In this document: piece by piece, positions 12,840 through 63,407 of the stretch | Position numbering within the stretch: position 1 is the first letter of the stretch | Layout of the letters: the number at the start of each line of letters is the position of its first letter | Assembly (NCBI RefSeq): GCF_900115155.1 | Contig: NZ_FOVM01000002.1 | Span: forward strand, 312,550 to 376,549 | Source: Mycetocola miduiensis | Lineage (GTDB): Bacteria > Actinomycetota > Actinomycetes > Actinomycetales > Microbacteriaceae | Length of the DNA: 64,000 nt | Direction: 5' to 3' | Notes under the pieces: model-generated | What the model was told of the DNA's origin: nothing | Seen by the model: the letters and a program-made list of their open reading frames with translations, nothing else | Database searches by the model: none | Translations under genes and position numbers: made by a program

Positions 12840-12940
12840 GGCCCCGATTGTGGCAGAGCCGCGACGCGCGTGGGCGTCGTTGGGCGATTGGGGGACAAGA
12901 CGGCCGTGTGGAGAAAATCCGGTCGCGATAGGGTGACGGC

Positions 12941-13480
12941 ATGACGAGCGACAGCGCAGCAAGCATCATCCCGCTATCCGGCATGGACGGACCGGTGATC
13001 GCCGACACGGCCTTCGTCGCACCCGGAGCACGGATCGTCGGAAACGTCACGCTGAAGGAGGCGTCAAGCGTCTGGTACAACGCCGTCCTCCGTGCTGACT
13101 CCGCCTCCATCGAACTCGGTGAGGGCAGCAACATCCAGGACGGCGTCGCGGTGCATGTGGATTCCTCGTCGCCCGTGGTCATCGGGCGCAACGTGTCGGT
13201 CGGTCACAATGCTGTCGTGCACGGCTGCACCATCGGGGACACCGTGCTTGTCGGCATGGGAGCCGTCGTACTCAGTGGTGCGGTCATCGGCGACGAATGC
13301 CTCATCGCCGGGGGAGCGGTCGTGCTCTCCGGCGCCGTGATCCCGCCTCGGTCACTCGTCGCAGGAGTGCCGGGGAAAGTGCGCCGGGAGCTGACCGACG
13401 ACGAGGTGGACGGCATCCGCAAGAACGCCGAGATCTACCTCGAACACACCCGGCACCACGCCCAGTCGCTCAGAGGCTGA
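12941..13480 (+). CDS. Gamma-carbonic anhydrase family protein (left-handed beta-helix)
   Basis: A 179-residue hexapeptide-repeat protein that would form trimers. The repeats are clear from about residue 25 to 145 (for example VAPGARIVGNVTL, GMGAVVLSGAVIGDE). The three zinc-ligand histidines of the gamma class are present as H72 (AVHVD), H89 (VGHN) and H94 (VVHGC). Members hydrate CO2 or bind CoA-type ligands; many bacterial members have weak or no anhydrase activity, so the reaction is not certain. It is divergent from the large membrane protein gene with a 101-bp promoter gap. Confidence 0.9.
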   Translation: MTSDSAASIIPLSGMDGPVIADTAFVAPGARIVGNVTLKEASSVWYNAVLRADSASIELGEGSNIQDGVAVHVDSSSPVVIGRNVSVGHNAVVHGCTIGDTVLVGMGAVVLSGAVIGDECLIAGGAVVLSGAVIPPRSLVAGVPGKVRRELTDDEVDGIRKNAEIYLEHTRHHAQSLRG

Positions 13481-39118: not shown

Positions 39119-39298
39119 GGGCCTTTGTGGTCGTTCGGGGGCCTGCCGAGTAGCCGTTGCGGCCCCCTCAGCACCGGAGCGGCCGGGCTGAGCCGTCGCG
39201 CTGCGGTCGATTGGGCCCGAAGGGTGGTTTGTTCGTGGGGGAGCAGCCCTTATGGCCCAATCGATTCGGGGAGCAGCCTTTTGGGCCCAATCGATGGC
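39119..39298. repeat. 180-bp direct repeat, copy 1
   Basis: Matches 39411-39590 over 180 bp with only two differences that I can find (an A/G in the CACCGG-GCGG part and one in GGGG-GCAGCC). The last 90 bp (39208-39297) is a three-arm element: CGATTGGGCCCGAAGGG, then the reversed arms CCCTTATGGCCCAATCG and CCTTTTGGGCCCAATCG. Confidence 0.9.
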
Positions 39299-39410
39299 GT
39301 AGAGCGCCCGTTCGTTGGTTCTCTGGGGCTCGAGTCGCCAGTGAATGTTGCCTGCGGCATCCGCGGCAACAGAACACTGCAACTTCGGCGCGGGGGCGAC
39401 CACAGTGATC

Positions 39411-39590
39411 GGGCCTTTGTGGTCGTTCGGGGGCCTGCCGAGTAGCCGTTGCGGCCCCCTCAGCACCGGGGCGGCCGGGCTGAGCCGTCGCGCTGCGGTC
39501 GATTGGGCCCGAAGGGTGGTTTGTTCGTGGGGGAGCAGCCCTTATGGCCCAATCGATTCGGGGAACAGCCTTTTGGGCCCAATCGATGGC
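39411..39590. repeat. 180-bp direct repeat, copy 2
   Basis: Second copy, starting 292 bp after copy 1. The first half contains an inverted GGGGGCC/GGCCCCC pair (near 39430 and 39455); the second half is the three-arm CGATTGGGCC element at 39500-39589. Confidence 0.9.
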
Positions 39591-39726
39591 CTCGTCTGTG
39601 GGCGATTGTTGCTCGCCCAGGGCGAGGGCGTCCACGTAGCGTTGCTTTCTGCATTCGGGCGGCGGCACAGTGCGGGGACTCGGGTTTGAGCGACCGTGCT
39701 TCGTGGCAAATGGACCCTCGCTCGAC

Positions 39727-39816
39727 CGATTGGGCCCGAAGGGTGGTTCGTTCGTGGGGGAGCAGCCGTTATGGCCCAATCGATTCGGGGAACAGCCTTT
39801 TGGGCCCAATCGATGG
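39727..39816. repeat. 90-bp three-arm element, copy 3
   Basis: Only the three-arm half is present (CGATTGGGCC start, two CCCAATCG ends), with a few substitutions from copy 2. It lies 20 bp past the end of the convergent VKOR gene, so it could terminate transcripts from that side. Confidence 0.85.
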
Positions 39817-39836
39817 TCGTGAAGCGGCGTCCCTGC

Positions 39837-43555: not shown

Positions 43556-43775
43556 GGGAGAATTCTAAGAAGACGCGACACGGCATCCGTTGCATTTGTG
43601 GGATTGGGTGCGATGAAGTAAAGTTTCCTGTTGGCGCACGTTGGCTTATCACCCGTTTGCCCATGGTTTTCTGTCAGCTTGACCTCCCTTCCCGCTGGGG
43701 TCTACCGCACAGTGAATTTTCCTTTGACAGATTGAGCTCGGAGCTATGAGCTCCCCAGAGAAGTAGGTACGAGAA
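43556..43775 (+). promoter_or_regulatory. rplU leader and promoter region
   Basis: 220 bp upstream of rplU. A consensus-like TTGACA is at 43724-43729 and a GAGCTC/GAGCTC inverted repeat at 43734-43739 and 43748-43753. Leaders of L21 mRNAs are often structured for control; whether this one is cannot be told here. The other half holds the DUF4031 promoter on the minus strand. Confidence 0.4.
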
Positions 43776-44084
43776 GTGGTTTACGCAGTAGTGCGCGCCG
43801 GTGGTCGGCAGGAAAAGGTAGAGGTCGGCACCATCGTGACGATGGACCGGGTCAAGAACATCAAGGACGGCAAGGTCGAACTGGCAGCTGTCCTGCTGGT
43901 CGACGGTGAGAACATCACCACCGACGCAGAGAAGCTTGCGAACGTCAAGGTCACGGCTGAGTTCCTCGAGAACCTCCGCGGCCCCAAGATCCACATCCAG
44001 AAGTTCAAGAACAAGACCGGTTACAAGAAGCGTCAGGGGCACCGCCAGGAGCTCACGCGCGTCAAGATCACCGGCATCAAGTAG
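43776..44084 (+). CDS. rplU: 50S ribosomal protein L21
   Basis: A 102-residue ribosomal protein. The start [17 protein letters not shown] and the end [18 protein letters not shown] are diagnostic. The start is GTG at 43776, behind GAGAAG. The operon rplU-rpmA-obgE is the universal bacterial arrangement; L27 follows after 19 bp. Confidence 0.98.
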
Positions 44085-44103
44085 AGCCTGAGGGAGAACA
44101 GAC

Positions 44104-44364
44104 ATGGCACACAAAAAGGGCGCGAGTTCCACTCGCAACGGTCGCGACTCGAACGCACAGCGCCTCGGCGTGAAGCGCTTCGGTGGTCAGGTCGTCTCTG
44201 CCGGCGAAATCATCGTCCGCCAGCGGGGCACCCACTTCCACCCCGGCGTCAACGTCGGACGTGGCGGCGACGACACCCTCTTCGCGCTCTCGGCCGGTGC
44301 GGTTGAGTTCGGCGCGAAGGGCGGCCGCAAGGTCATCAACATCGTGACGGCGGCTGCCGAGTAG
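44104..44364 (+). CDS. rpmA: 50S ribosomal protein L27
   Basis: An 86-residue ribosomal protein whose N-terminus reaches the peptidyl transferase centre. [20 protein letters not shown] and GDDTLFAL are diagnostic. The sequence begins directly with the mature-type AHKKG, so no N-terminal processing peptide as in Firmicutes is present. A strong terminator follows. Confidence 0.98.
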
Positions 44365-50711: not shown

Positions 50712-50787
50712 GGGTCTGTGGCGCAGCTGGTAGCGCACCTGCATGGCATGCAGGGGGTCAGGGGTTCGAATCCCCTCAGATCCACCA
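50712..50787 (+). tRNA. tRNA-Ala (anticodon GGC)
   Basis: Acceptor GGGTCTG pairs with CAGATCC, followed by TG, the D stem GCGC, an anticodon stem CCTGC/GCAGG with loop ATGGCAT (anticodon GGC), a T arm GGGGTTCGAATCCCC, discriminator A and an encoded CCA. Its 3' part is the attachment site of the adjacent island. Confidence 0.96.
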
Positions 50788-50792
50788 AAACC
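50751..50792 (+). repeat. attL: tRNA-proximal attachment repeat (42 bp)
   Basis: Covers the tRNA-Ala anticodon-stem 3' side, variable loop, T arm, acceptor and CCA plus AAAACC. It is identical to 62352-62393. Confidence 0.9.
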
Positions 50793-50826
50793 CCTGATGA
50801 ACGCTAAGTTCTCAGGGGTTCTTTTC
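50789..50826 (+). terminator. Terminator directly after tRNA-Ala
   Basis: Arms AACCCCTGA (50789-50797) and TCAGGGGTT (50812-50820) followed by CTTTTC. The matching place at the right attachment site has a mispaired version (CCTCTGG against TCAGGGG), so the island supplied the intact hairpin or the outer copy decayed. Confidence 0.8.
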
Positions 50827-50842
50827 GTTAGAAAAGAGCCTC

Positions 50843-50864
50843 AAAGGCCCTTTGGGGCCTTTTT
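50843..50864 (+). terminator. Second hairpin with T run downstream of tRNA-Ala
   Basis: AAAGGCCC (50843-50850) pairs with GGGCCTTT and is followed by TTTTT. A further GGGGCCTTTTT repeat follows immediately. Confidence 0.7.
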
Positions 50865-50886
50865 GGGGCCTTTTTGAAATCGCCCC

Positions 50887-50906
50887 GCGATCCACAGCGA
50901 TCCACA
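50887..50906 (+). repeat. Tandem decamer near the left attachment site
   Basis: GCGATCCACA occurs twice back to back, followed by CCGGATCACGCC. Its position inside the island next to the attachment core suits an arm-type binding site for integrase or excisionase, which is inference. Confidence 0.5.
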
Positions 50907-50960
50907 CCGGATCACGCCGGACAGCGAAGAACCAGGGTTTGTGCCGCACTCATAAGGAGT

Positions 50961-51191
50961 ATGAGCACATCATCCGTTCCGACCACCTATCCGCCCGCGC
51001 GCTTCATCGAAAGCCTCGGGGACTATATCACCGTCGACGAGCTCGCGGAGTATCTGCAGCTGTCCAAAGAGACGATCTACCACTGGCGTCTCGAGGGCAC
51101 CGGCCCGAAAGCGACCAAACTCGGCAAGCACTTGCGCTACAGCCGAGCAAACGTCGAGGCCTGGCTGAAGTCCAGAACCGACCGACGGTGA
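50961..51191 (+). CDS. Excisionase-like helix-turn-helix protein (MerR/HTH_17 type)
   Basis: A 76-residue DNA-binding protein. ITVDELAEYLQLSKETIYHW is the winged HTH core of the excisionase (Xis/AlpA-like) family and LGKHLRYSRANVEAWL the recognition end. In tRNA islands it usually directs the integrase toward excision. The start ATG at 50961 has AAGGAG only 1 nt before it, unusually close, so a downstream start is possible. It precedes the integrase gene by 42 bp. Confidence 0.85.
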   Translation: MSTSSVPTTYPPARFIESLGDYITVDELAEYLQLSKETIYHWRLEGTGPKATKLGKHLRYSRANVEAWLKSRTDRR

Positions 51192-51233
51192 CCCGGTCGG
51201 CTGTGCCGCGCTCCTCGGACTGAGGACGATCCG

Positions 51234-52469
51234 ATGGCACGACGCAAGATAGAGCCGGGCTCACACGGCGAGATCACGTTCCAAAACCTGCCCGACGGCC
51301 GCGTCCGTGGCACGCTGCGCTACCGCCGGATCGACGGCGGATATGGCAAGATTCGCGTTCGGGCGAACTCCACCGCGGCGGCACGACGTTCGCTGCTGTC
51401 GTCCGTGGAGGAGCAGAAGCAGGCCCCGCTCGGCCGGATCGACGAACTCACGCCCGACTCCTCGTTTCTGGCGCTGGCCCGCGAGTTCATGGACCATGTC
51501 GAGTTCACTGGGGATCAGCGAGACACGACCCGCCATGAAAACCGCAGGCTCGTCGAGAAGAAGATAGCGCCTCACATGGGTGCGCTCGCGATCCGCGAGA
51601 TCAAGTCCAGCACGGTGCTCCGGGTGTATAAGGCGATCCATAAGGAGACCCCAAGTACGGCCAGGAACGTGAAAGCGCTCGTCAGCCAGATCTGTTCGTA
51701 CGCCGTGATGAACGACTTGATGGTTGCTAACCCCGCCCGTGAGGTGAAGCGAGTCAAGCAACAGCCCAAGCCCATTTACGCCCCCGACCCGATGGAGCTC
51801 GAAGAACTGCGTGGCATCATCCGGGACTACCAATGCCGTACGGACAGAATGGGGCCGAGGCCCTCCGACCTTCTCGGCGACGTCGTCGACTTGATCCTCG
51901 CGACCGGTGCACGGGTCGGCGAAGCCGTCGGCCTCAAATGGGAATACGTCGACATGGACTCGCCCAAACCAACCATCACGATCGCAGGCAAGGTCGTCGA
52001 CTCGAAAGGCCAACCCAAACACTGGGAGAACTACCTCAAAAACGAGTCCGGGTGGCGGCGCATTAGCATCCCACCGGAACTACTTCCAATGTTGCGGCGC
52101 CGAAAGCTCACTAGCGGCGGCAACGAGTTCGTTTTCCACACCAGCACGGGGGCTCCCAACGGCACCCAGGACGTCCATCGCGCGCTTCAAAGCGTCCGCG
52201 CTTGGGCCGACATCGGCGACGAGCTTGTCCCACACGCCCTGCGAAAGTCGGCCGTCACCACAGTCTCCAATGCACTTGGCCTGGAAGCAGCAGCACGGTT
52301 CGCCGGCCACAAGCGCTCCCGTGTCACCGAGCAGTACTACGCCAAGCGCGCGATCGACGCGCCGGACACCTCGGGAGTCCTCGGACACCTTCAGGGCGCC
52401 CCGAAACAGTCTGCACCCGTTTTGAAGGTTGACAAGGAGCGCTGGGGTCGCCGAGAGGCAAGCTTGTGA
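51234..52469 (+). CDS. Tyrosine recombinase / integrase
   Basis: A 411-residue site-specific recombinase that would insert the island at tRNA-Ala. Residues 1-65 are an arm-binding-type basic N-terminus, 75-170 the SAM-like core-binding domain, and 185-390 the catalytic domain. Catalytic residues: R227 (ATGARVGEAVGL), K269, H334-x2-R337 (PHALRK), H359 (FAGHKR) and tyrosine Y368 or Y369 (TEQYYAKR). All are intact, so the enzyme may still be active. Its position next to the tRNA fits. Confidence 0.95.
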   Translation: MARRKIEPGSHGEITFQNLPDGRVRGTLRYRRIDGGYGKIRVRANSTAAARRSLLSSVEEQKQAPLGRIDELTPDSSFLALAREFMDHVEFTGDQRDTTRHENRRLVEKKIAPHMGALAIREIKSSTVLRVYKAIHKETPSTARNVKALVSQICSYAVMNDLMVANPAREVKRVKQQPKPIYAPDPMELEELRGIIRDYQCRTDRMGPRPSDLLGDVVDLILATGARVGEAVGLKWEYVDMDSPKPTITIAGKVVDSKGQPKHWENYLKNESGWRRISIPPELLPMLRRRKLTSGGNEFVFHTSTGAPNGTQDVHRALQSVRAWADIGDELVPHALRKSAVTTVSNALGLEAAARFAGHKRSRVTEQYYAKRAIDAPDTSGVLGHLQGAPKQSAPVLKVDKERWGRREASL

Positions 52470-52505
52470 GCGTGCGGTGCGCTTGACCGCAGGGGAGTGG
52501 CATGG

Positions 52506-52542
52506 GGTCGGGAACCCTCTAGGGAAACCTCTAACGTGACAG
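52506..52542 (+). repeat. GGGAAC-CTC tandem repeat site, left copy
   Basis: GGTCGGGAACCCTCTA is followed by GGGAAACCTCTA and ACGTGACAG: a 12-bp unit (GGGAA-CCTCTA) in tandem. A related 37-bp block is at 54620-54656, so the pair brackets the two genes between. It lies 150 bp before the start of the first gene and may be an operator. Confidence 0.6.
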
Positions 52543-52692
52543 GTCAGAAATGGTCTTCGGCACCCCCATTTTTCGAGTTGATAACAAGCCATGCGCGCTG
52601 ACGCGGGGCCGCACCGCCAGCTTTTTGATCGAACCACGTCGGAAACTAAAGTTCTGTGGTACGTTGTTGTCCTACTCGAAAGCGGAGGCAAT

Positions 52693-53439
52693 ATGAGGCA
52701 GCACCCTGCGAGACCTTGGCACGGCGAGTTCACAGACGAAGGCCTTTCCGCTGTTAGGCACGCCATTCCGCTCGGCATTCATCTGAGCCAAACTCGCAGC
52801 GCGAACGCCCACACGGCGTACGACGACAAGGATGGCGACAGGTACGTATATGGAGCCGGCATGTCCCGGGGTGTTTACAAGGAGCTCGTTCAATTGCTGA
52901 GTGAAGTGTCCGGGTTTCGAGAGGTCGAAGTGGAGGGAAGTCGCAGAAAGCTGATCGCCATCGGCAATGTCCATTTATATCCGCTGCGCATCGGGCCAAA
53001 AATGCCTCGAAACTACCATCGCGTGCGTGTGGCGTATATGCCCGAACAGCGTCAGGAGATGTTTCGGGCTTCGAGCACGACGAAATTCGATGAGCCCGCA
53101 CTGTTCGACGATCCCCACTTATCGACCGCAGACGACCCTGCGAGCATTAGCGAGGCTCTCGCACACCAGAACCGCATCGACGAGCGCAAGGCGCTCCTGG
53201 TCGCTTACTACAGCTGCACTCCCGCGGGAGTCGGCTCGATCTACTTGGCACCAGCCAAACTGTCCGGCACGCATTACCTCGAATTTACTTCGCCGGAAAG
53301 TCTCAGTTACGTCGTGGAGGCTGAGACCTCCGCAACACAGCCGGCAACTACTGTCAGCTCAAGAACGTTTGCAGACGGCACTCGTCCGCGTACCGCAGCC
53401 AAGCTTCGCACCACCCCGAAGGATCCTGATACTCAATGA
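52693..53439 (+). CDS. Unknown protein paired with an XRE-ImmA/IrrE gene
   Basis: A 248-residue soluble protein I do not recognise. A basic, aromatic first half (PARPWHGEFTDEG, YVYGAGMSRGVYKELVQLL, RKLIAIGNVHLYPLRIG) looks folded; the middle is acidic (DEPALFDDPHLSTADDPASI) and the last 40 residues look disordered. GGAGG lies 5 nt before the ATG. Its stop overlaps the start of the ImmA/IrrE gene by 4 bp, so the two are made together. COG2856-type proteases often pair with a toxin or a target protein, which suggests this role here, but no toxin motif is visible. Codon use is more AT-rich than in the core genes. Confidence 0.75.
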   Translation: MRQHPARPWHGEFTDEGLSAVRHAIPLGIHLSQTRSANAHTAYDDKDGDRYVYGAGMSRGVYKELVQLLSEVSGFREVEVEGSRRKLIAIGNVHLYPLRIGPKMPRNYHRVRVAYMPEQRQEMFRASSTTKFDEPALFDDPHLSTADDPASISEALAHQNRIDERKALLVAYYSCTPAGVGSIYLAPAKLSGTHYLEFTSPESLSYVVEAETSATQPATTVSSRTFADGTRPRTAAKLRTTPKDPDTQ

Positions 53440-54602
53440 TTGACGCCGTGTACTCCGACTTCGACCGGACATCACTGCTAGAAATCGCGAGGGTCTTCGA
53501 CCCGTCGCGGCTGATCCAGGCCCGCCAACTGAGCCGACTAACGAAGACTGATCTGCATCGGGCGGTTGGGGTTTCAGCTGCGGCGATCGGCCAGTATGAA
53601 CGCGGAGAGGCGACGCCGCGCGTTGACACCTTGATCTCCCTGTCCAAGGCACTCAACGTCCCCCCGAATTTCTTTGCGCTCGGACGGCCCCGCGCACGGC
53701 TAGACGTCGCTCAAGCTTCCTTTCGCAGATTGCGAGCGACGTCCGTGGCGCAGCAGCAGCAGGCCGTTTCATACGTCGAGCAGGTATGGGAACTCAGCAG
53801 TCATCTGGAGCGAAGTGTTGAGTTCCCGGAGCTGAATCTCCCCCAGTGGGCGATGGCAGATGAACCTGAGATGGCAGGGCGCCCCGATCCCATCACGGCC
53901 GCTCGCCACATCCGGAATCACTGGGGGCTTGGCGTCGAGCCGATCAAGTTCCTTGTTTATGAACTTGAGCAGCACGGCATCCTCACTGTGTTCTTCTCGA
54001 TGAAGGAGGATGAAAACTCGGACGAAAAAAGCCACATCGACGCTTTCTCGACGAGTTCACTTCCTCGGCCGATTATCGTTCTTACGCCTGACAAAGCAGA
54101 CGATGTGATGCGTCACCGGTTCTCGGCCGCACACGAACTGGGCCACATTGTGTTACACCGTTGGCGCCCGGGGTCGAACGCGGAACTTGAGCGGGAAGCG
54201 GATGCTTTTGCAGCAGAGTTTTTGACGCCGCGGGACGTCATCAAAACCGAGTTGCCGACACGGTTCAACCTTGGAAAGCTCGAGGAGCTCAGCCTTCGTT
54301 GGGGAGCGTCGATCAAGTCACTTGTCTTCCGCTCAAAGGAGCTCGAACTCATTTCGGAGGCCACGGCGCGCCGGGCGTACGTCACCCTCAACTCGCTGAC
54401 AAAGGACGGAACCATTCGACCGCGACCGGTGGAGGATTTCCCGGGTGAACAACCCGAACTGCTCAAGAACGCCCTGGACGTACTAGACGAAGTAGGCATC
54501 CCGATCTCGCAGATCGCCCGCGAACTGCATGTCACGCCCAAACACGTGCGCCGACTCACTGGGATCAAGGACGCGCGGCCAAAATTACGCTTGGTTCGGT
54601 AG
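53436..54602 (+). CDS. XRE HTH plus ImmA/IrrE zinc metallopeptidase
   Basis: A 388-residue two-domain regulator. An XRE helix-turn-helix occupies about residues 25-82 (GVSAAAIGQYERGEATPRVDT). The ImmA/IrrE domain has the zinc motif H233-ELG-H237 (RFSAAHELGHIVLH) and a probable third ligand E254 (READAFAAEFL). A C-terminal helix-turn-helix-like stretch (ISQIARELHVTPKHVRRL) follows. Known members cleave a repressor upon DNA damage or phage signals (ImmA, IrrE) or act as antitoxin-like partners. It overlaps the preceding unknown gene by 4 bp. Confidence 0.9.
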   Translation: MIDAVYSDFDRTSLLEIARVFDPSRLIQARQLSRLTKTDLHRAVGVSAAAIGQYERGEATPRVDTLISLSKALNVPPNFFALGRPRARLDVAQASFRRLRATSVAQQQQAVSYVEQVWELSSHLERSVEFPELNLPQWAMADEPEMAGRPDPITAARHIRNHWGLGVEPIKFLVYELEQHGILTVFFSMKEDENSDEKSHIDAFSTSSLPRPIIVLTPDKADDVMRHRFSAAHELGHIVLHRWRPGSNAELEREADAFAAEFLTPRDVIKTELPTRFNLGKLEELSLRWGASIKSLVFRSKELELISEATARRAYVTLNSLTKDGTIRPRPVEDFPGEQPELLKNALDVLDEVGIPISQIARELHVTPKHVRRLTGIKDARPKLRLVR

Positions 54603-54619
54603 GCACATTCGGCTGGTCG

Positions 54620-54656
54620 GGTCGGGAACGCTCGGCGGGAACCCTCAACGGGACAG
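54620..54656 (+). repeat. GGGAAC-CTC tandem repeat site, right copy
   Basis: GGTCGGGAACGCTC, GGC, GGGAACCCTCA, ACGGGACAG: the same two-unit layout as 52506-52542 with a few changes. It starts 18 bp after the ImmA/IrrE gene. Confidence 0.6.
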
Positions 54657-54779
54657 TCGATGCTCGAGTGCCTTTTCCGGTGGAGGATCGTCCGCCCATG
54701 ACTCGGTGGCCACCACTGATACTCTGCATCGACACCGAAGGCGTCATCGAAGTAGCGAGAACTGGAGTGCTCGATGGTG

Positions 54780-54891
54780 TGTACTACAGGGTGCGCACGG
54801 CCCCGCCTGTCCAGTAGATGTCTGCTCGCCGTGCTACATTTGGGAGATCACGATCAGCCCGTTGCCGCAAGGCGCGGGCTGATTTTCTTTT
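54780..54891 (+). ncRNA. Putative small RNA ending in a perfect terminator, directly before the abi gene
   Basis: In the 300-bp gap before the Abi gene there is a strong hairpin: ATCAGCCCG (54853-54861) pairs with CGGGCTGAT (54875-54883) around a nested GCC-GCAA-GGC, followed by TTTTCTTTT (54883-54891). The abi ribosome site GGAAGAG begins 2 bp later. A terminator this close to a start codon implies a separate short transcript ending there, of about 70-110 nt. The 5' end given here is a guess; a TACTAC-like element at 54782-54788 could be its -10 or lie inside it. Confidence 0.5.
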
Positions 54892-54902
54892 AGGAAGAGC
54901 AC

Positions 54903-55889
54903 ATGGTGGAGTACACGAAGAAGTGGCTGTCGCTCGATCAGCAGGTTGATCGGCTGATCGATCGAGGACTCGAGGTCGAGGACCCCGGCCGAGCCGCAGC
55001 ATTGCTCAAGTCGATCGGCTACTACCGTGTTACGGGCTACCTCTACCCGTTTCTTCAGTCGGACGAGTGCGTGGACGATGAAGGCCAACCGCAATTCAGA
55101 ATTCTGAACAAGTACCGGCCGGGCACCGCCTTGCATCATGCGGAGTCCATCATCGACTTCGACCGACAACTGCGCATCCTGGTACTGGAGGGTGTGGAGC
55201 GCATAGAGGTCGCCGTGCGCATGCGAGCCGGCTATGTCCTCGGGAGGTCTTCGGCGTTCGCTCACGAAGACCCCGCGTGCTTCGATGACTCTTTCACTCG
55301 ACCGGGTACCGACAGCCGGGACCCGCACTCCAGTAAGCACGTGGAGTGGCTGAAGCGAGTCAAGGACCGGCGGGACAACTCTGACGAAATGTTCGTCGGG
55401 CACTTCCGCACGAAGTACGAGGACCGCATGCCGATCTGGGCGCTCACTGAGCTGCTCGAGATGGGGCATCTCTCCACTCTCTTTCGCGGGATGCTCCAGA
55501 AGGACGCGGAGGAGCTTGCTGACGCCTTTGGCGTCTCGAAGAAGAAGCTAATGACCAGCTGGCTCGCCAGCTTGAACTATGTACGGAACGTCGCAGCACA
55601 CCACGCCCGGCTCTTCAACCGGAAACTCCAGAATGCGCCGTCGCGACCAACGGTAGGGACCGTGCCAGTGCTCGACCACCTCCGAGCGCCCGATGCACCC
55701 AAGCAGGATTTTGGAACCTATAACGCTCTGGCGGTCATCGCATACCTCTTGCAGTCGATCGAAGCGGAGCCGGTGTGGGCCAATCGCCTCGGCGAGCTAT
55801 TACGAGAATTCCCGGCGTCGCACGCCTTGACGATACAATCGATGGGTGTCCCCGAGAACTGGGAGTCGCTCAACCTCTGGACGAAGTAG
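54903..55889 (+). CDS. Abi_2-family (AbiD/AbiF-like) abortive infection protein
   Basis: A 328-residue protein of the Abi_2 family. The N-terminus KKWLSLDQQVDRLIDRGL with KSIGYYRVTGYLYPF is typical. A HEPN-like ribonuclease signature R-N-x3-H is at R228-H233 (NYVRNVAAHHARLFNR), after MPIWALTELLEMG, the usual Abi_2 core. In lactococcal plasmids AbiD/AbiF proteins stop phage growth by killing or arresting the infected cell. GGAAGAG precedes the ATG. It lies beside the ImmA/IrrE pair, forming a small defence-like block in the island. Confidence 0.9.
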   Translation: MVEYTKKWLSLDQQVDRLIDRGLEVEDPGRAAALLKSIGYYRVTGYLYPFLQSDECVDDEGQPQFRILNKYRPGTALHHAESIIDFDRQLRILVLEGVERIEVAVRMRAGYVLGRSSAFAHEDPACFDDSFTRPGTDSRDPHSSKHVEWLKRVKDRRDNSDEMFVGHFRTKYEDRMPIWALTELLEMGHLSTLFRGMLQKDAEELADAFGVSKKKLMTSWLASLNYVRNVAAHHARLFNRKLQNAPSRPTVGTVPVLDHLRAPDAPKQDFGTYNALAVIAYLLQSIEAEPVWANRLGELLREFPASHALTIQSMGVPENWESLNLWTK

Positions 55890-56634
55890 AGCCGGGCACT
55901 CGCTTAGTCTCGAGAACGGCCTTACCGAGATGATCCATACGAGACTTGCCTTGTGAGACCCAAGAGGCCATGAGATCTCAGTGTTGGGGAGCGTCTCGTC
56001 AGAGTGATATCCACGAGACGATCATCCTCAGTCATTCGCGGCGCACCAAGTGCCGCGTCGGCTGGGGAGGCTGGTTGGCATGGATGAAACCACGTTGCTC
56101 GCGGGCATGGTCGACAACTACGACGAGCAGTACCGCGGCACTTCTGACTCGGAGACGTCTTCGTACACGGGGTGGAGTTCGGACGGAAAGAACACCCCGA
56201 ACCGAGACGACCACCAACACGTGCACCGACGCGGTCGGTATCCGTCGCGACTACGAATCCCACGACGATGACGGTCAGACTGGGACGTCGTCGATCATCA
56301 TCAATGACGCATGTGGCATCTCAACTGGTCCAAGAATCGTTTGTAAACATCGCGATCAAGACGACTCCCTGCTACATCGAGGAGAACGCCAATGGAATGC
56401 TCGTTTACAAGGCGAAACTAGACATCAGAAAGGTATCGGCGATCTCGAGATCGCGGGTCGCCGAACGCTGAACGGGCAATGCCTGAAGATACGCAGGCGA
56501 AACCCCGTCGGAACCTGGAACCGTGTCCTGAAGCAGCGAGGCACCCCGAGCGCTCGCTCGAAAGCCCCGGAAGATCTGCCGATCTGCCGGGACTTTGCGT
56601 ACACGTCTTCCGACCAACAATCACGGAGCCAGTT
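55890..56634. other. Gene-poor stretch without recognisable genes
   Basis: Open frames of up to 230 codons exist on the plus strand (55946-56638) but their composition (threonine/arginine strings) is unlike a real protein and shifts between frames. The most protein-like fragments are around 56093-56170 (DETTLLAGMVDNYDEQYRG) and 56319-56440 (ASQLVQESFVNIAIKTTP), in different frames, so this may be a frameshifted remnant. No family assigned. Confidence 0.5.
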
Positions 56635-57641
56635 CTAAAGCGTTCGGGCCGGCGTCGCCCCTACCAAGCCCGCCGCCTCCGCCAGCAGTTCTACCGAACG
56701 CAGCTGCCCTGCCACTCCGGGACTCTGGTGTGCCACGATCAGTTCGTCCGCACCGGAATGCGCTGTGAACCTCGTCAGGTAATCGACGACCGCGTCAGGG
56801 GTGCCAACAGCCGAGTACTTCATCATCTGGGCGATCTGCTGGCCTTGAGGGGACTCCAGGATGAGATCCGCCTCGTCATCGGTGAACGTCCGACCCCTGC
56901 CCAGCATCAGGACCACCCGTTCACGCAACGTCGCCCGGAACATGTCCTGGGCCTCGCCGTCGGTGGCGGCCGCCACGACATTCACGCCGACCATGACATG
57001 CGGTTTCTCGAGCTGGGCGGAGGGTTCGAACTCCCGTCGGTACACGGCGACCGCGTCGTGCAGCGCGTTGGGTGCAAAATGTGAGGCGAAGGCATATGGC
57101 AGGCCAAGAGCGGCGGCGAGCTTCGCACCGAACAGCGATGACCCCAGAATGTACAACGGAACGTCGGTGCCCTTGCCCGGGATCGCCTCCACACCGGGAA
57201 TCCGGGTCGGACCGGTCAGGTAACCCTGCAGTTCAAGGACGTCCTGAGGGAAACTGTCCGAAGAACTCGGGTCACGGCGCAGCGCCCGCATGGTGTTCTG
57301 GTCACTGCCGGGCGCACGCCCCAGGCCGAGATCATCCGCCCGGGGTGCAGGGTCTCCAGGGTCCCGAACTGTTCGGCGATGGTCAGCGGCGAATGATTGG
57401 GAAGCATTACACCGCCAGCACCCAGACGGATGGTCTCGGTGTGAGCTGCGACATGCGCGATCAGCACGCTGGTCGCCGACGAAGCGATCGAAGACATGTT
57501 GTGGTGCTCGGCATACCAAATCCGGCGGTAGCCCAGTTCCTCTGCCCGGCGCGCCATGGCCACGCTGCCGGCAAAACTCTCCGCGGCGGTCTGCCCGGGT
57601 CCGATGGTCGCCAGGTCAAGAATGGAAAGCGGAACAGTCAA
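56635..57641 (-). pseudogene. LLM-class flavin-dependent monooxygenase, frameshifted
   Basis: Luciferase-like monooxygenase split over two frames. The N-terminal part (57641-57334; [42 protein letters not shown]) and the C-terminal part (from about 57333 to 56635; [43 protein letters not shown]) join in the middle of the conserved [14 protein letters not shown] motif. Loss of one base near 57333 (CGGATGATC where CGGATCGATC is expected) explains the break. The start is TTG at 57641 without a clear ribosome site. A sequencing error would give the same picture. Confidence 0.85.
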
Positions 57642-58323
57642 GATCTACCGGTCTTTCGTCGAGCGGCTGCGCCGAGTGGTTCGGGGTCTATGGACAATCG
57701 GCCAGATACCGCTGATCCATACCCCGGCACAACGCGGACAAACGTCCTGGATTCCACTGAGCTGTACCGCGAAGACAGGCAAGCCTACCCCGCTGGGCCA
57801 GGGCATTTTCGGCTGCATCACCAACCGCGAGGTGATGCCTGACACCCCTCACGACGACCTTGACGGCACCCCAGTCGCGCAGAACGTCCGCTACCTCGTG
57901 TCCGCTTGTGACAAGGACGCTTAGTCGTCCGGTGGGTTCTCCGCCGGAGCGCTCAAGATGGCCGGCACGGAGGCCGGTGACCTCTACATCGTCGACACGA
58001 AAGAGACCCTCGCCGCCAACAAGGTGAAGTAGACACCGGACGACGAAATGCCCCATTTCTGCCGACAGAGCGCGACCACGATGTTGTGCCGCGCATTACG
58101 TTGCTACTACGCATCACACGGGGCAGCTTCCTTCAGAATGTTCCAGCACTCCACCAGAGAACGGCATCGATCGCGGTAGTCGGGGCGGCGGACCAGGATC
58201 CGAGCTGACGGGCGAGCATGGCACTCCGATCGGGGGGCGACCGGCCGGGCCGCCTTGGATGGGAGGTCGAATTTCGCTCGCCCTCCGAGGCCCCCAGCCC
58301 AGGTCCACATTTTCGAAGGATAC
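57642..58323. other. Decayed coding sequence, unassigned
   Basis: Plus-strand pieces look like remnants: 57642-57924 reads into IFGCITNREVMPDTPHDD and VAQNVRYLVSACDKD, meets a stop, then continues in the same frame (SSGGFSAGALKMAGTEAGD, LYIVDTKETLAANKVK) to a second stop at about 58030. A second frame over the same bases gives ELYREDRQAYPAGPGHF. From 58030 to 58323 I see nothing recognisable. Confidence 0.45.
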
Positions 58324-58935
58324 CTACGCCGGTATCGAGATGTCGGGGGCTGTGTGGCGCGTACGGAAGCCCCCGCGAATTTGCACAACTGCGGGGATCT
58401 CGGTGCCGGCAAAGATTTCGAGGTCGTTGAGTGAACTGTCGACGATGTCGCCGACGATCTGCGGCGACGCGCCCCGTCGGCAGGTCACCTGGATGGAGAG
58501 TATCGGTGTGCGGTGAACCTTATATGCGGAGACATGGGAGGCAACGAGCCCGGGTTGCCGAGACAGCACCTCGTTGAGGATGTCGGCGGCGACTGCCGCA
58601 TCGATGATCGTCGTCCCGCCCTTGACGGCATCGTTCACGATGAGACGATTCGTGCGTCCGCGGCCTTGCCGGAGGATGAATATGGCGAGGAGGACGATCC
58701 CGAGGAGGAGAACGGCAACGGCGCCGGCAGGGAACCAATTCGGCGAGGACTGCGTGGCGGTTGTCCCCTGGAGCAAGGTCTCGATCCCCGTGAGAACACC
58801 CGGCGCGATCTCGTCCCACCCTTCGGCGAGGGCTGGGGAGGTGGCCAGTCCGATGGCTGCCGCACCAAGCACGACCGCGGTCAGGCCCACGAGCAGAAGC
58901 AGGAGGCGATTCGCGAAGCGATTCGTACTGTTCAC
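58324..58935 (-). CDS. Asp23-cluster membrane protein, AmaP-like
   Basis: A 203-residue protein with two membrane segments (about 10-35 and 68-88) and a C-terminal soluble domain (VNDAVKGGTTIIDAAVAADILNE region onward, here quoted in part) resembling the Asp23-like fold of AmaP anchors. It is the last gene of a five-gene operon in which every junction is a 4-bp overlap. In Firmicutes AmaP tethers Asp23 to the membrane; the same job is inferred here. No signal peptide cleavage site is certain. Confidence 0.75.
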   Translation of the reverse strand: MNSTNRFANRLLLLLVGLTAVVLGAAAIGLATSPALAEGWDEIAPGVLTGIETLLQGTTATQSSPNWFPAGAVAVLLLGIVLLAIFILRQGRGRTNRLIVNDAVKGGTTIIDAAVAADILNEVLSRQPGLVASHVSAYKVHRTPILSIQVTCRRGASPQIVGDIVDSSLNDLEIFAGTEIPAVVQIRGGFRTRHTAPDISIPA

Positions 58936-59516
58936 GCACCTACCTTCCCCTCACGGGCGATGGACAGACGGGGTGGTTCCAACGTGGGCTGGAGTTGGTA
59001 GGAGTCGAGTTCGTCGGTCACGACGTTGAGCACGGCAGTCCGGTCGAGGAGAATCCCCGACGTCGGCGTAAGCCGGACTTCGACACGCTTCCGAGACACG
59101 GTGACGCGTACTTGGTCGAGGCCGATGCCGGCCGCGGAAGCGGCGTGCCGGGCGAGCGCCGAGGCGATGACGTCGTCATCGACAAGGATGACCGTGTGCG
59201 TTGACTCCAGGATGTGTCGCCCCCGGCGGCCAGGAGTCACTGCAAGAGCGATGAAGGCCCAGCCGGTCAGCGCGATCACCAGACCGCCACCGACGAGACT
59301 CGCGGCAGGCAGCGAGGTGATCTCGACGAGCGCTGTCGCCATCACGCTGGGCGCCACCAGGATGGGCGGCCGGTTGAGCATACCGAGGACGATCTCTACG
59401 GCCAGCCAGGCGAACGTCGATATCAAGACGATCGCCAGGATGATGGCGGCGACCGATCGGGGAGAGCGGGTCTCGCGGCGACGGATACGCTGGTAGGTGG
59501 ACCGTCGGCTGCTCAT
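58932..59516 (-). CDS. DUF6286-type membrane protein of the Asp23 cluster
   Basis: A 194-residue protein: basic N-terminus, two membrane helices (about 24-46 and 72-93), and a soluble tail with TVILVDDDVIASALARHA and VRVTVSRKRVEVRLTPTSG. Proteins of this shape accompany Asp23 and DUF2273 genes in actinobacteria and are annotated DUF6286. It overlaps its neighbours by 4 bp on each side. Confidence 0.75.
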   Translation of the reverse strand: MSSRRSTYQRIRRRETRSPRSVAAIILAIVLISTFAWLAVEIVLGMLNRPPILVAPSVMATALVEITSLPAASLVGGGLVIALTGWAFIALAVTPGRRGRHILESTHTVILVDDDVIASALARHAASAAGIGLDQVRVTVSRKRVEVRLTPTSGILLDRTAVLNVVTDELDSYQLQPTLEPPRLSIAREGKVGA

Positions 59517-59890
59517 CTGACGCGAGCCTCGGGCCGCATCGTGGCGCCGGTGAATCGGATCGTGATGTTGCCGAGGGTGGAACCGGTCAGAGCTGCCACG
59601 CGATTGCGAAGCAACTGCTGGGCGCGCTCGGAACGGTCCAGGAGCGACCCGCCCGACCGCTCGAGCAAGCGGCCGGTGCCCCCTGACTTGCGCAGCTCCG
59701 TCACCGGAACGCTGGTGCTGACGCTCACAGCAAGCGCACCTCCTTCGTCATGAAGTTCCACGCGGACGGTTTCCGTCCGAACGCCGAGGCCCTCGGCGGC
59801 GACTGCGGAAATGACGCGGCTCAGCGCGCGCGGCGTCACTCGCGTGCGACCTCGCGATGGCTCGGCGTCAGGCTGACCCTGGATGGTCAT
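59513..59890 (-). CDS. Asp23/Gls24-like small protein
   Basis: A 125-residue soluble protein with an alkaline-shock-protein fold: RVTPRALSRVISAVAAEGLGV is the usual start of the domain and VRVELHDEGGALAVSVSTSVPV the strands. It is shorter and more diverged than the first Asp23 gene of the operon. Overlaps by 4 bp at both ends. Confidence 0.75.
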   Translation of the reverse strand: MTIQGQPDAEPSRGRTRVTPRALSRVISAVAAEGLGVRTETVRVELHDEGGALAVSVSTSVPVTELRKSGGTGRLLERSGGSLLDRSERAQQLLRNRVAALTGSTLGNITIRFTGATMRPEARVR

Positions 59891-60081
59891 GACGAGGAAC
59901 GCTTACCCCGTACCGCGTCGACAACGCCGCGGACGTTGAGCTTGCCGTCCATGATGCGGCCAGCCAGACCACCGACGAGCATTGCGCCCGCCACGAGGAC
60001 AAACGCCCAGAACCCGAGAACGATCCACGTCAGGGCGAGAACCGCTCCCACGAGAATGCCAACTCTGGTGGACGAAATCAT
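59887..60081 (-). CDS. DUF2273-like small membrane protein
   Basis: A 64-residue protein with two hydrophobic segments (about 5-24 and 26-42) and a basic tail (RGVVDAVRGKRSSS). DUF2273 proteins sit next to asp23 in Gram-positive bacteria and are thought to anchor it. Overlaps the Asp23 gene by 4 bp. Confidence 0.8.
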   Translation of the reverse strand: MISSTRVGILVGAVLALTWIVLGFWAFVLVAGAMLVGGLAGRIMDGKLNVRGVVDAVRGKRSSS

Positions 60082-60515
60082 TGCACCCGGGCCACCACGA
60101 CAGGAGCAGACTGGTCGTCGCCATCCTCAGAGGCGATATACACGTCATTGATCGTGATATTCACCTCTGTGACCTCCATACCCACCAAGGTCGAAATCGC
60201 GTTGATGACCGCAGCGCGCACATCGTCGCCAACCTTCTGCAGGGGCACTGGGTAGTCCGCGACGATGCTGACGTCAACAGCAACCTGCGTCTCGCCGACC
60301 TCGACCCTGATGCCCTGAGAAAGGTCTGTAGTGTTCATCGCATCGCGGATGGCACCCATCATGCGCGCCGCCCCGCCACCCAGGCCATGGACACCAGCAG
60401 TGTCACGCGTTGCAATGCCTGCGATCTTCGCAACCACACCTTCGTTAATCGTCGTCTTGCCGTGTCTCGTTTCGATGCTTACCGCGACGGCCGGCGTGGA
60501 CGTTGTATCTGCCAT
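60078..60515 (-). CDS. Asp23/Gls24 family envelope stress response protein
   Basis: A 145-residue protein, first gene of the operon. HGKTTINEGVVAKIAGIATRD and VAVDVSIVADYPVPLQKVGDD, with VEVTEVNITINDV near the end (here MEVTEVNITINDVYI), match the DUF322/Asp23 family. In staphylococci it coats the membrane and relates to cell-envelope stress. GAGGAGAAGAG precedes the ATG. The operon promoter should lie in 60516-60780; I see no clear consensus. Confidence 0.9.
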   Translation of the reverse strand: MADTTSTPAVAVSIETRHGKTTINEGVVAKIAGIATRDTAGVHGLGGGAARMMGAIRDAMNTTDLSQGIRVEVGETQVAVDVSIVADYPVPLQKVGDDVRAAVINAISTLVGMEVTEVNITINDVYIASEDGDDQSAPVVVARVQ

Positions 60516-60812
60516 GCTCTCTTCTCCTCGATCATCGGGGGTCGCCCCGCCGGGACGACCGTGTACGACTGAGGCAACGCGCGATGTGCGCGCTGAACTG
60601 CGGAGGATCTCGTCGGCGCTGTCTGATGGAGCGGCTCCCGACCTTTGCGCGGTGCGACATTGTTCCCAGTCACGTTCCCCATGGTCGGGATGCTACGCGC
60701 ACGATGGCGACAAGTAAACGGGCCGAAGGTCCCGCGAAAATCGTCGCTGGGTTTCTCCCTTGATCGGGAAGATATCGGGAAGCTACCTACATTGCGCTGC
60801 TGTCGAGGCTGA
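60516..60812. other. Upstream region of the Asp23 operon
   Basis: No gene is supported. On the minus strand it holds the leader of asp23, with GTTTAC and TAGCAT elements at about 60714 and 60690, eighteen bases apart, a weak candidate for a stress-sigma promoter. Confidence 0.4.
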
Positions 60813-61037
60813 CACCTTCTCGCGCGTACTCCTCCAGCCAAACCAGCAGGTCGGAATGACTCATGGGGGCTGCTGCTGGTCGATGCGGGGCCGGGGGTGT
60901 TGGCCGAGCTGGTGGCCCGGCACGACCTCGCTGATCTGCGCGCGATCGTGGTCACGCACCCGCATGCCGATCACAGCCTGGACCTGATGGCGCTGGCCTA
61001 TCGGTGGACGTTCCCGGTGCGGTTGCCGCGGATTCCA
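60813..61037 (+). pseudogene. Fragment of an MBL-fold metallohydrolase
   Basis: In one frame the sequence reads NDSWGLLLVDAGPGVLAEL, VARHDLADLRAIVVTHPHAD and HSLDLMALAYRW, the first third of a metallo-beta-lactamase-fold protein with the H-x-H-x-D-H metal motif (HPHADH). A stop lies just upstream and similarity ends near 61037, so most of the gene is missing. Confidence 0.7.
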
Positions 61038-61244
61038 ACCCCTCACCTCGCGCCGGCCGTCATCTCCGCTGAGCCCTCAGGCTCGAGCCTGCCCGCCATA
61101 AAGAACACGTTGACTTGGCCCTCGTGGTTGGAGACCAGGTTGGCATTCCGATCGCCGCGAGCCACCCTGTCTTCGACCGCATGCCGATGGCTTATGGACC
61201 TTCAACAGTGTGCGTAAGCGTGTGAGCGGAGTACCATCGCGGTC

Positions 61245-61559
61245 ATGAAAGTGACCGAGACCCGAAGCGGCGGGTTCGCTGGTATCCCACGGCGCTGGCA
61301 AGTCTTCCTGGAGAAGGAGCCCGACGAGGAGTCGTGGCTGGCCTTGCTCCGCAGGCTCCCGTGGGACGATTTGCCTCGTGACGCCCCCCAACCGGACCGC
61401 TACCTGTATCGGATCAATTGCGAACCGGACGAAAGCGTGTTCCGGGAACCGCGGGAGGCGCTCATACCGGAGCAAGACCTGACTGGGGCCTGGCGCGAAC
61501 TGGTCGAGCGAGTCTGTAAACGAGACGAGCAGGAACATCAGCCTCGGCCCGAGGACTGA
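61245..61559 (+). CDS. Emfourin-like protease inhibitor, orphan
   Basis: A 104-residue soluble protein. The opening KVTETRSGGFAGIPRRW contains the S-G-G-F-A-G-I motif of emfourin, the protealysin (M4 metalloprotease) inhibitor, and PWDDLP ... PDRYLYRI and LTGAWRELVERV fit the rest of the family. Emfourin genes normally lie beside an M4 protease gene; none is seen here, though decayed genes flank it. It may guard against foreign or distant proteases. The start ATG at 61245 is the natural one. Confidence 0.75.
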   Translation: MKVTETRSGGFAGIPRRWQVFLEKEPDEESWLALLRRLPWDDLPRDAPQPDRYLYRINCEPDESVFREPREALIPEQDLTGAWRELVERVCKRDEQEHQPRPED

Positions 61560-61804
61560 AGACTTCGTCAGGCGGGTCTCCGACCGCTACGGTGCTGGCC
61601 ACCGACCTCAAACGTTCTTCGGACCGCAGATCAGCCTTGGCGTTCGTAGAACATACGTGAGGCTTGCTGGGGACAGCATCGCGAGTTTCGTCTGAATCCG
61701 CTGGAGTCGCCCGGACAGGGTTTGTGACTTTTGTTGGAGGGCAGCGCCTCCCGTTCAATCGTGACCAGTCCACCGGCGCACTGGGGGCGCTTCCTCAAAG
61801 CCGT

Positions 61805-62047
61805 GCGCTTCAATGCGGCAACGACTTGCAAGTCGACTTGGGTTCTATTTGCTCCGGCGGATTCGAGTGCCGCTGAGATGACGTTGACGTCTTCAAACCG
61901 GATCAACCGATGACCGCGACGGATGGAGTTGAGGACAGAATGCTGCCGCACGGCGCGAGCGAGAAACGCGGCAACATATGCGGTGAGAGAGATCGACTCA
62001 CCCGTGTCGCTGCGATGCTCGTGAATGGACCTTCGTCCGTAGTCCAT
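61805..62047 (-). pseudogene. Remnant of a 2-oxoacid dehydrogenase acyltransferase (E2) domain
   Basis: Minus-strand frame from about 62047: HEHRSDTGESISLTAYVAAF, LARAVRQHSVLNSIRRGHRL and IRFEDVNVISAALE. This is the pattern of the E2 catalytic domain (T-G-E-x-I-S-x-T-A-x2, then R-x-G-R-L-x2-F-x-D-V-x-V). Neither the start nor the C-terminal HxxxD-G active site is present, and the flanks are out of family. Confidence 0.65.
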
Positions 62048-62351
62048 AGGCGTTCCGGGCGGAAGGCGGCACCGGGTGCAACAGCTATTGCAGACGGAAT
62101 GGCAGCTGGGAACGGCCGGACGGCCCTCGTAGCGGTCTCCCCGCGTGCGTTCCAGGCCGGCGGCGTCGCCGTCGCTGAAGTTGTCCGAGACGCTCATGTG
62201 TCGGGGCCTTTTTGGGTCCCTTTTGACAAGCGAACAACGGCAAATATCCACATCAAATGATGAGTGCTCATCCGACGCGATCGCCCTTGCGGCCGTATGA
62301 TTACTGGTATCCACAACTAAAGACGGCGCGGACCCGCACTTCAGCGTCTGT

Positions 62352-62393
62352 CAGGGGGTCAGGGGTTCGAATCCCCTCAGATCCACCAAAACC
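62352..62393 (+). repeat. attR: distal copy of the tRNA-Ala 3' end
   Basis: Exact 42-bp copy of 50751-50792 including T arm, acceptor and CCA. Only the 3' end of the tRNA is present, so it makes no functional tRNA. Confidence 0.9.
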
Positions 62394-62687
62394 TCTGGTG
62401 AGCGATAAGTTCTCAGGGGTTCTTTTCTTTCGGAAAGCGCCTCCGGGGCCTTATTGGGGCCTTAATGATTTTCATCGAAGGTTCCGGGGACCACTCCCGA
62501 GGTCGCTCAGTCGGCCGAAAGTGCTGCGAACGGCGGTCGTGCCCACCTGGTGGTATTCGAGCGGTCGCTCCATCTGCTCATTGGTCCGTGCGACGAGTAG
62601 AGGAGAAAGACCCTTTCACGGAATTCTGAGCCCATTGAGGGACTTTCGCCCTTGTCGCCGCACCGCATGCGCTCGTAGCTTCAGACG
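62394..62687. other. Sequence beyond attR, no gene
   Basis: About 300 bp with no supportable gene. The first 80 bp still resembles the sequence downstream of the intact tRNA (TTCTCAGGGGTTCTTTTC is shared, then GGGGCCTT repeats), followed by unrelated sequence that leads into the CPBP gene. Confidence 0.6.
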
Positions 62688-63407
62688 GTGCGGTCGCAAT
62701 CTACTGACAACGTAACCTCTCCATGGACTCCACCGCCCCCGCCGCAGCCTAGATGGGGCGGGTCATCTCTCTGGACTGCGATCGCCGCCATAGAGGTTGC
62801 GCTCGCTATCACGACAGTGATTCTGGACCTGTTCATCCCAGCGCTGGTCCTGCTCGTACTTGGTGCGTTCTCGTTAGCGCTTCGGCGACAGAGCCTCAAG
62901 ACGCTCGGAGTGTGCCGCCCGCCTGCAGGCGCCTCCAGAATGATCATCCACGTCGCCCTGCTGACGCTTGGCTGGAACATCCTCACCTTCCTCCTGTTCC
63001 TTCCGTTGCTGGAGCTCGCAACCGGTACCGAACAGGATGTGAGCGGGTTCGCCCCGATACAGGGCGACTTCCGTCTGTTGCTCCTCATGCTTGCGCTGTC
63101 ATGGACTCTCGCAGCCGTGGGTGAGGAGTTCGCGTTCCGCGGCTATGTTCAGACGCGAATGCGCGAGCTGCTCCCGGGGCGTTGGGGGCTCGCCACAGCG
63201 ATCATATTTTCGTCGTTGCTGTTCGGGCTGGTACACACAGAACAGGGAATTGTCGGAGTGATCGTCACGACCGTCGATGGTGTTTTCTTCAGCCTCCTGC
63301 GCTACCAGTTTCGAACGCTGTGGGCAGCCGTAACGTCGCACGGCGTTAGCAACACGATGGGGCTTATCGTCTTTTTTCTGTTCGGCCCGGTGCAAGCTCC
63401 CTGGTGA
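62688..63407 (+). CDS. CPBP-family intramembrane metalloprotease (Abi/CAAX type)
   Basis: A 239-residue membrane protein with about six or seven helices. Motif 1 is EEFAFRGYVQTR (E-E-x3-R), motif 2 FGLVHTEQG, and motif 3 SHGVSNTMG, giving the glutamate and histidine metal ligands of the family. Members process peptides, prenylated proteins or bacteriocin-related targets. A proline-rich N-terminus (SPWTPPPPPQP) precedes the first helix. The start is GTG at 62688. It lies just outside the island. Confidence 0.88.
   Translation: MRSQSTDNVTSPWTPPPPPQPRWGGSSLWTAIAAIEVALAITTVILDLFIPALVLLVLGAFSLALRRQSLKTLGVCRPPAGASRMIIHVALLTLGWNILTFLLFLPLLELATGTEQDVSGFAPIQGDFRLLLLMLALSWTLAAVGEEFAFRGYVQTRMRELLPGRWGLATAIIFSSLLFGLVHTEQGIVGVIVTTVDGVFFSLLRYQFRTLWAAVTSHGVSNTMGLIVFFLFGPVQAPW

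Follow-up and report, generated by a model that had tools for sequence, protein, structure and literature searches.

The window analyzed here, 64,000 bp of the Mycetocola miduiensis genome (G000:C7:312550-376549; host genome G000, 3.30 Mb in 15 contigs), carries an 11.6-kb island, called A below, at tRNA-Ala(GGC). With a probability of roughly 0.8, A is a site-specific integrative element at this tRNA gene, lying on an older element B that resembles a cis-mobilizable element (CIME) and on a decayed element C; B and C are lettered outward from the tRNA. A is a real and probably mobile element, and it is ordinary in kind. Comparisons within the genus were made across six genomes, the host and five congeners (G001-G005).

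Attachment sites and integration genes

The attachment (att) sites and the integration module comprise:

50712-50787, + strand: tRNA-Ala(GGC), the integration target (ARAGORN, Rfam)
50751-50792, + strand: att core copy 1 (attL), inside and just past the tRNA 3' end; exact 42-bp repeat
50854-50875, + strand: left-arm direct repeat, two copies of GGGGCCTTTTT (50854 and 50865), putative integrase arm sites
50961-51191, + strand: excisionase, xis (Pfam HTH_17, TIGR01764, phrog_66); the open reading frame (ORF) opens at 50874 and the start at 50961 is guessed
51234-52469, + strand: tyrosine integrase, int, 411 aa, frame intact (PF00589 and PF22022, over cut-off)
62203-62321, + strand: right arm, with GGGGCCTTTTTGGGTCCCTTTT at 62203 and motif TATGATTACTGGTATCCACAACTAAA at 62296-62321
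62352-62393, + strand: att core copy 2 (attR of A, junction with the next element); exact 42-bp repeat

The original prediction, made from the letters of the window, had the tRNA 3' end duplicated 11.6 kb away. The two 42-bp copies are exact and 11,601 bp apart; the match does not extend leftward, and beyond the core a looser similarity runs for about 70 bp more (112 bp in total at 86-88% identity). The number of exact 42-mer pairs expected by chance is about 6e-15. Other exact direct repeats of at least 42 bp in the window were three blocks of one local duplication (39119-39589, partners just downstream), and no exact inverted repeat of at least 42 bp was found in the window. G+C content is 60% in the left half of the island and 63% in the right half, vs. 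66% for window positions 1-50750. ATCCACA occurs in the left arm at 50890 and 50900 and in the right arm at 62246 and 62309, where one further GGGGCCTTTTT copy lies at 62203. On either strand of the window GGGGCCTTTTT was counted three times, every copy in the two arms, and 4 of the 13 ATCCACA copies are in the arms.

The predicted excisionase-like gene at the tRNA side and the predicted integrase were both recovered by profile searches. The excisionase scored 41.2 bits against TIGR01764 (cut-off 28.8), and the Arg, Lys, His-x-x-Arg, His and Tyr of the integrase, which we take to be catalytic, align with integrase structure 3nkh. PF00589 matched nine times genome-wide, and the window's integrase is the only match within C7:363-441 kb and C13:197-231 kb. 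The reported lack of transfer and phage genes was borne out: no relaxase or FtsK-type match was obtained in A (Pfam hits; TrwC and FtsK searches), no Rep or Prim-Pol was among the Pfam hits, and neither Pfam nor a PHROGs scan of 9 proteins gave a phage structural or packaging family.

In the proposed mechanism, the integrase would join the 42-bp cores (attP and the tRNA 3' end), directed by the arm sites that flank them, and integration would restore the 3' end of tRNA-Ala(GGC). Excisionase and integrase together would run the reverse reaction and release a circle. Because A has no detected relaxase, its spread would need a helper, and transfer could proceed through, e.g., an origin of transfer (oriT) recognized in trans. 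The genome's only TrwC match lies at C8:318859, and three tyrosine-integrase matches lie 12-20 kb from it (C8:331-339 kb); C8:318859-339270 is a possible second mobile element and candidate helper.

Relatives at the same tRNA

tRNA-Ala(GGC) lies downstream of rsfS in 5/5 congeners. One contig scan gave eight relatives of the integrase, seven in Agromyces and one in congener G004, where the contig ends inside int. The integration site is common to these relatives: xis-int directly follows rsfS-tRNA-Ala(GGC) in seven of the eight, and the eighth locus (L111) begins at a contig edge. Cargo proteins of the window had no match at E <= 1e-4 in the eight loci, which extend at most 10 kb past int (L113 and L114 end in or just after it). 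G001 and G005 have a single att and no integrase match at the tRNA site. Three of the seven Agromyces have both att copies on one contig (Agromyces sp. Soil535, 18.7 kb; A. terreus, 22.1 kb; A. italicus, 101.8 kb, with TrwC inside the att pair). In A. humi and A. bracchium the two copies lie on separate contigs, and A. lapidis and A. sp. S2-1-8 have a single att.

The A. terreus element (G062:C12:849648-871802) shares with A the tRNA, the att core, the right-arm motif, an integrase 72% identical and the carriage of defense genes (AbiEi/AbiEii adjoining int, HsdM/HsdS further on), but is longer, has a TrwC relaxase, and yielded no left-arm repeat. Within it (L135, 10081-13970), two adjacent GTPase genes, one dynamin-like, lie between the relaxase and the type I restriction genes, and are a possible further defense pair. 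Outside the genus, the integrase of the Soil535 element (G064:C23) is the closest relative (87%, best segment). Like A, this element yielded neither a TrwC nor an FtsK match on its contig, the only TrwC match of Soil535 being on another contig; it differs in length, in an interrupted integrase frame and in lacking the right-arm motif, and its cargo includes BrkB, an ion channel, DUF2252, a MalT-like regulator, DUF2254, PLD and DUF1254.

Arm motifs were scanned in 12 stretches, allowing at most 6 mismatches for the right-arm motif and at most 3 for the left-arm repeat. The right-arm motif matched four times (window, C13, A. terreus, A. italicus), each time immediately before an att copy, and is also visible by eye ahead of the att copies on the A. 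humi and A. bracchium contigs. The left-arm repeat matched nine times (window at 50854, 62203 and 62445; C13; Soil535; A. italicus; G002; G003; G004), with no match in A. terreus, G001 or G005. The motifs are putative integrase binding sites.

Identity at fourfold sites was scored on the best segment per gene, with one of two Soil535 int pieces unscored. For G004, xis was 88.9% and int 77.1% identical, vs. 55-67% for the core (8 ORFs); for Soil535, 79.5% and 67.9% (second piece only), vs. 45-52% (7 ORFs); and for the remnant in G002, 77.8% (36 sites) and 76.0% (25 sites), vs. 31-49% (5 rows). For A. terreus and A. italicus, xis was 76.9% (26 sites) and 70.6% (34 sites) identical. Core ranges exclude an ORF at 43674-44138 (- strand), taken as the shadow of a gene on the opposite strand, which read 100% for G004 and 86-92% for three Agromyces. 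The excess of xis and int over core is read as a sign of exchange among nearer hosts; constraint on the short xis may be another source of its high identity.

A probable array of elements beyond A

Two features of the window lie beyond attR of A:

62445-62468, + strand: decayed left arm, read as that of B (3 mismatches to the left-arm repeat)
62688-63407, + strand: CAAX/CPBP protease gene (Pfam), first gene of B and not core flank

The CPBP gene at 62688 had been proposed as the chromosomal right flank, with an uninterrupted rsfS-tRNA-CPBP order expected at an empty site. Neither expectation held: the gene matched in 0/5 congeners and has a paralogue 16 kb further on, and no such empty site was found, since the gene used to recognize it is not core. 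The host's core right flank was not found along the next 78 kb of C7; it lies on C13, from 197344, in reverse. In the congeners, the conserved core after the tRNA (measured against G001) begins at 1.7 kb (G001), 4.8 kb (G002), 5.4 kb (G003) and 2.0 kb (G005), and G002 and G005 have a further 1 kb or so in common. The prediction did withstand a check for conservation of the whole region, of which only pieces match in the five congeners (at most 40 candidates scored per genome).

The att at 62352-62393 (att2) is followed by the decayed left arm, and a third att core, with 1 mismatch, lies at C13:211111-211070, ahead of the core flank. A right arm stands before this third copy, and fragments of xis and int and a luciferase-like (LLM) oxidoreductase gene (88% DNA identity) follow it. 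Synteny suggests that C7 and C13 adjoin. If they do, the order is tRNA-att1-A-att2-B-att3-C-core, the distance from tRNA to core is 78.1 + 33.3 = about 111 kb or more, and B keeps att at both ends (att2 is exact; att3 has 1 mismatch and is preceded by a right arm). A thus looks like the tRNA-proximal unit of a larger array. The distal end of C was not found, and C13:190-230 kb holds no further right-arm motif.

For B, no match to PF00589, TrwC or FtsK was obtained across C7:375-441 kb and C13:211-231 kb, a search that did not extend to serine recombinases, relaxases of other kinds or mating-pore genes; a contig gap is possible. The ten C7 proteins of B that were scanned are two P-type ATPases, an E1 dehydrogenase, an erythromycin-esterase-family protein, a universal stress protein, Hsp20, PfkB, BON, GH65 and a GAF histidine kinase. 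Several of the stress-type proteins have paralogues within the array, and this stress cargo may resemble mycobacterial dormancy regulons. Three stretches of A, at 61174-61563, at 61876-62026 and near the left end (50879-50929), recur in B as paralogues with 80-82% identity. These lie around 98.8-102.3 kb on the window scale and are perhaps a fossil copy.

Accretion of integrative and mobilizable elements (IMEs) and CIMEs, with newcomers at the tRNA side and older elements moved outward, is described in PMC5704250. By the same course, A would have entered a tRNA site already holding B (att-flanked and with no integrase detected, a CIME as PMC5704250 uses the term) and, beyond it, decayed C; new arrivals would land tRNA-side and displace older elements outward. 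The array offers a decay-ordered series (intact, integrase-less, fossil) of seemingly one family at one site. Candidate att arms have been mapped in it, and accretion is therefore directly testable.

Cargo of the island

The cargo genes of A are:

52693-53439, + strand: 248-aa protein of no known family, candidate RosmerTA toxin (RmrT)
53436-54602, + strand: RmrA, antitoxin with HTH and ImmA/IrrE (M78) (PADLOC RmrA, E 4.7e-88; Pfam)
54903-55889, + strand: AbiD/Abi_2 abortive-infection protein (Pfam Abi_2, 1.9e-45; PADLOC AbiD, 1.8e-56; PHROGs)
56635-57641, - strand: LLM oxidoreductase gene, broken into two overlapping frames
58324-60515, - strand: Asp23-type envelope operon, five genes (Pfam), namely the next five lines
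60078-60515, - strand: Asp23
59887-60081, - strand: DUF2273
59513-59890, - strand: 125-aa protein
58932-59516, - strand: DUF6286
58324-58935, - strand: AmaP-like protein
60897-61217, + strand: metallo-beta-lactamase-fold hydrolase, fragment (Pfam profile positions 40-83 of 196)
61245-61559, + strand: emfourin-like protease inhibitor (Pfam Emfourin, 2.5e-10)

The mixture of defense-like genes, a stress operon and decayed genes described earlier was confirmed by these matches. The RosmerTA-like pair and AbiD, next to int, are likely two anti-phage modules; the defense genes would pay for the carriage of A, and the toxin-antitoxin pair may also deter its loss. RmrA has a HELGH motif at residue 233, and its gene overlaps that of the 248-aa protein by 4 nt.

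Gene position points to the 248-aa protein as a candidate toxin. Searches of Pfam, PADLOC, NCBIfam and PHROGs assigned it to no family, and it had no match in the phage collection at E <= 0.01; 7 of the 398 family genomes sampled, host included, hold a match. The homologue is directly upstream of an RmrA homologue in 6/6 of the other genomes (two matches weak, E 4e-5 and 2e-4). A copy with 31% identity is also found on a Microbacterium plasmid, where an annotated XRE-family regulator lies directly downstream of it. None of the seven family members matched PADLOC; a Pfam match of one of the seven (E 0.099) was taken as chance, and the single match of a PDB-sequence profile search (E 0.87) was not credible. 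The structure predicted from 7 sequences had a mean pLDDT of 70.6, and no fold match at E <= 0.001 was found in PDB (best 0.045) or BFVD (best 0.12); for this reason no biochemical function is proposed. Peak 19-residue hydropathy is 1.24, with no strongly hydrophobic stretch. On L157 (G180:C66), 10751-13301 holds a RosmerTA-like pair whose proteins are 85% and 92% identical to those of the window, about 500 bp from tRNA-Lys; the pair therefore occurs beside another tRNA too.

In the right half, the AmaP-like member scored 24.4 bits, under the model cut-off of 55, and the Asp23 protein is present in 1/6 genus genomes. An open 335-aa LLM frame at C13:209748-210755 is 92% identical to the island LLM over 232 aa. 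DNA paralogous to the emfourin gene lies in B at 99752-100141 on the window scale.

Elsewhere in the window, 39119-39817 holds a 180-bp unit in three direct copies; identity to the first copy is 99% for the second and 65% for the third. Each copy overlaps a short array whose 30-bp unit contains GGGCCC.

Weighing the alternatives

Several observations weigh against a mobile A on an older array. Neither an excised circle nor presence/absence among strains was observed, A shows partial decay in its right half, and the adjacency of C7 and C13 rests on synteny. Arm motifs are not universal: the right end in Soil535 is without the right-arm motif, and at the left end in A. terreus no left-arm repeat was found with 3 mismatches allowed. 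No congener has a perfectly clean empty site, there being variable DNA after the tRNA in G001, G002, G003 and G005 and element remnants in G003 and G002. Fourfold identity of int was 35.8% for A. terreus and 31.5% for A. italicus, under the core (44-59% and 43-64%; 7 rows each), and recent exchange therefore does not reach these two.

Decay raises the question of whether A is a dead remnant of an old integration that has lost excision. The broken LLM gene, the truncated hydrolase and the lack of detected transfer genes fit such a remnant, but A retains intact xis and int frames, intact arms at both ends and intact 42-bp cores, and the fourfold identity of xis and int to two other hosts exceeds that of the core, which makes this reading unlikely. 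Less probable again is that A and B form one composite island (att1-att3) that arrived together, with the 11.6-kb unit as its proximal part. The 80-82% identical paralogues of A stretches inside B favor it, as does the composite transfer of a CIME with an integrative and conjugative element (ICE) reported in PMC5704250. Yet att2 has an intact right arm on one side and a decayed left arm on the other, the pattern expected for later insertion beside an older element, and A has intact int, xis and arms vs. no PF00589 match in B.

Prophages and satellites also carry tRNA-adjacent xis-int with anti-phage cargo, so A could be imagined as a phage satellite or degenerate prophage. Gordonia phage Kita encodes a RosmerTA system (PMC10440598). 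However, a scan of IMG/VR contigs gave 7 pattern hits for the integrase, none of which was confirmed as a relative, the scanned proteins included no structural or packaging family, and two Agromyces members of the element family carry a TrwC relaxase. A phage origin is accordingly very improbable beside an integrative element accreted onto B and C.

Comparison with known systems

A broader proposal is put forward tentatively, at somewhat less than even odds: a Microbacteriaceae family of tRNA-Ala(GGC) elements that would swap nearly all cargo behind a fixed xis-int-att, ranging from relaxase-bearing forms of 22-102 kb to relaxase-less defense islets and arrays of >100 kb, together with a new soluble, non-membrane-acting RosmerTA toxin family (the 248-aa protein). 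A search with few terms, which is weak evidence of absence, found no literature description of a tRNA-Ala element of Agromyces or Mycetocola. The composition of A had not been recognized as that of a known element; it is in part recognizable, as an integrative element without detected transfer genes that carries RosmerTA-like and AbiD genes.

A resembles an IME in having its own tyrosine integrase and xis, a tRNA 3' end as target and flanking att sites, in being non-conjugative and in lying beside decayed att-flanked elements; it differs in that no relaxase was found in it (TrwC search, Pfam hits), and no oriT search was made. With the actinomycete integrative and conjugative elements (AICEs; PMC3218068), A shares the tRNA 3' end, Xis and tyrosine integrase, but it has no FtsK-type Tra match and no Rep or Prim-Pol among its Pfam hits. 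The RosmerTA system (PMC10440598) likewise combines an HTH and ImmA protease antitoxin with an unrelated protein and has the toxin gene first; in that paper RmrA partners with diverse toxins in either gene order. There the Kita toxin acts on membranes, which it depolarizes, whereas the 248-aa candidate matched no family and reaches a hydropathy maximum of 1.24. The kind of element is thus already known, and A adds one candidate new toxin, pointing to a candidate new partner of the RosmerTA antitoxin in Microbacteriaceae.

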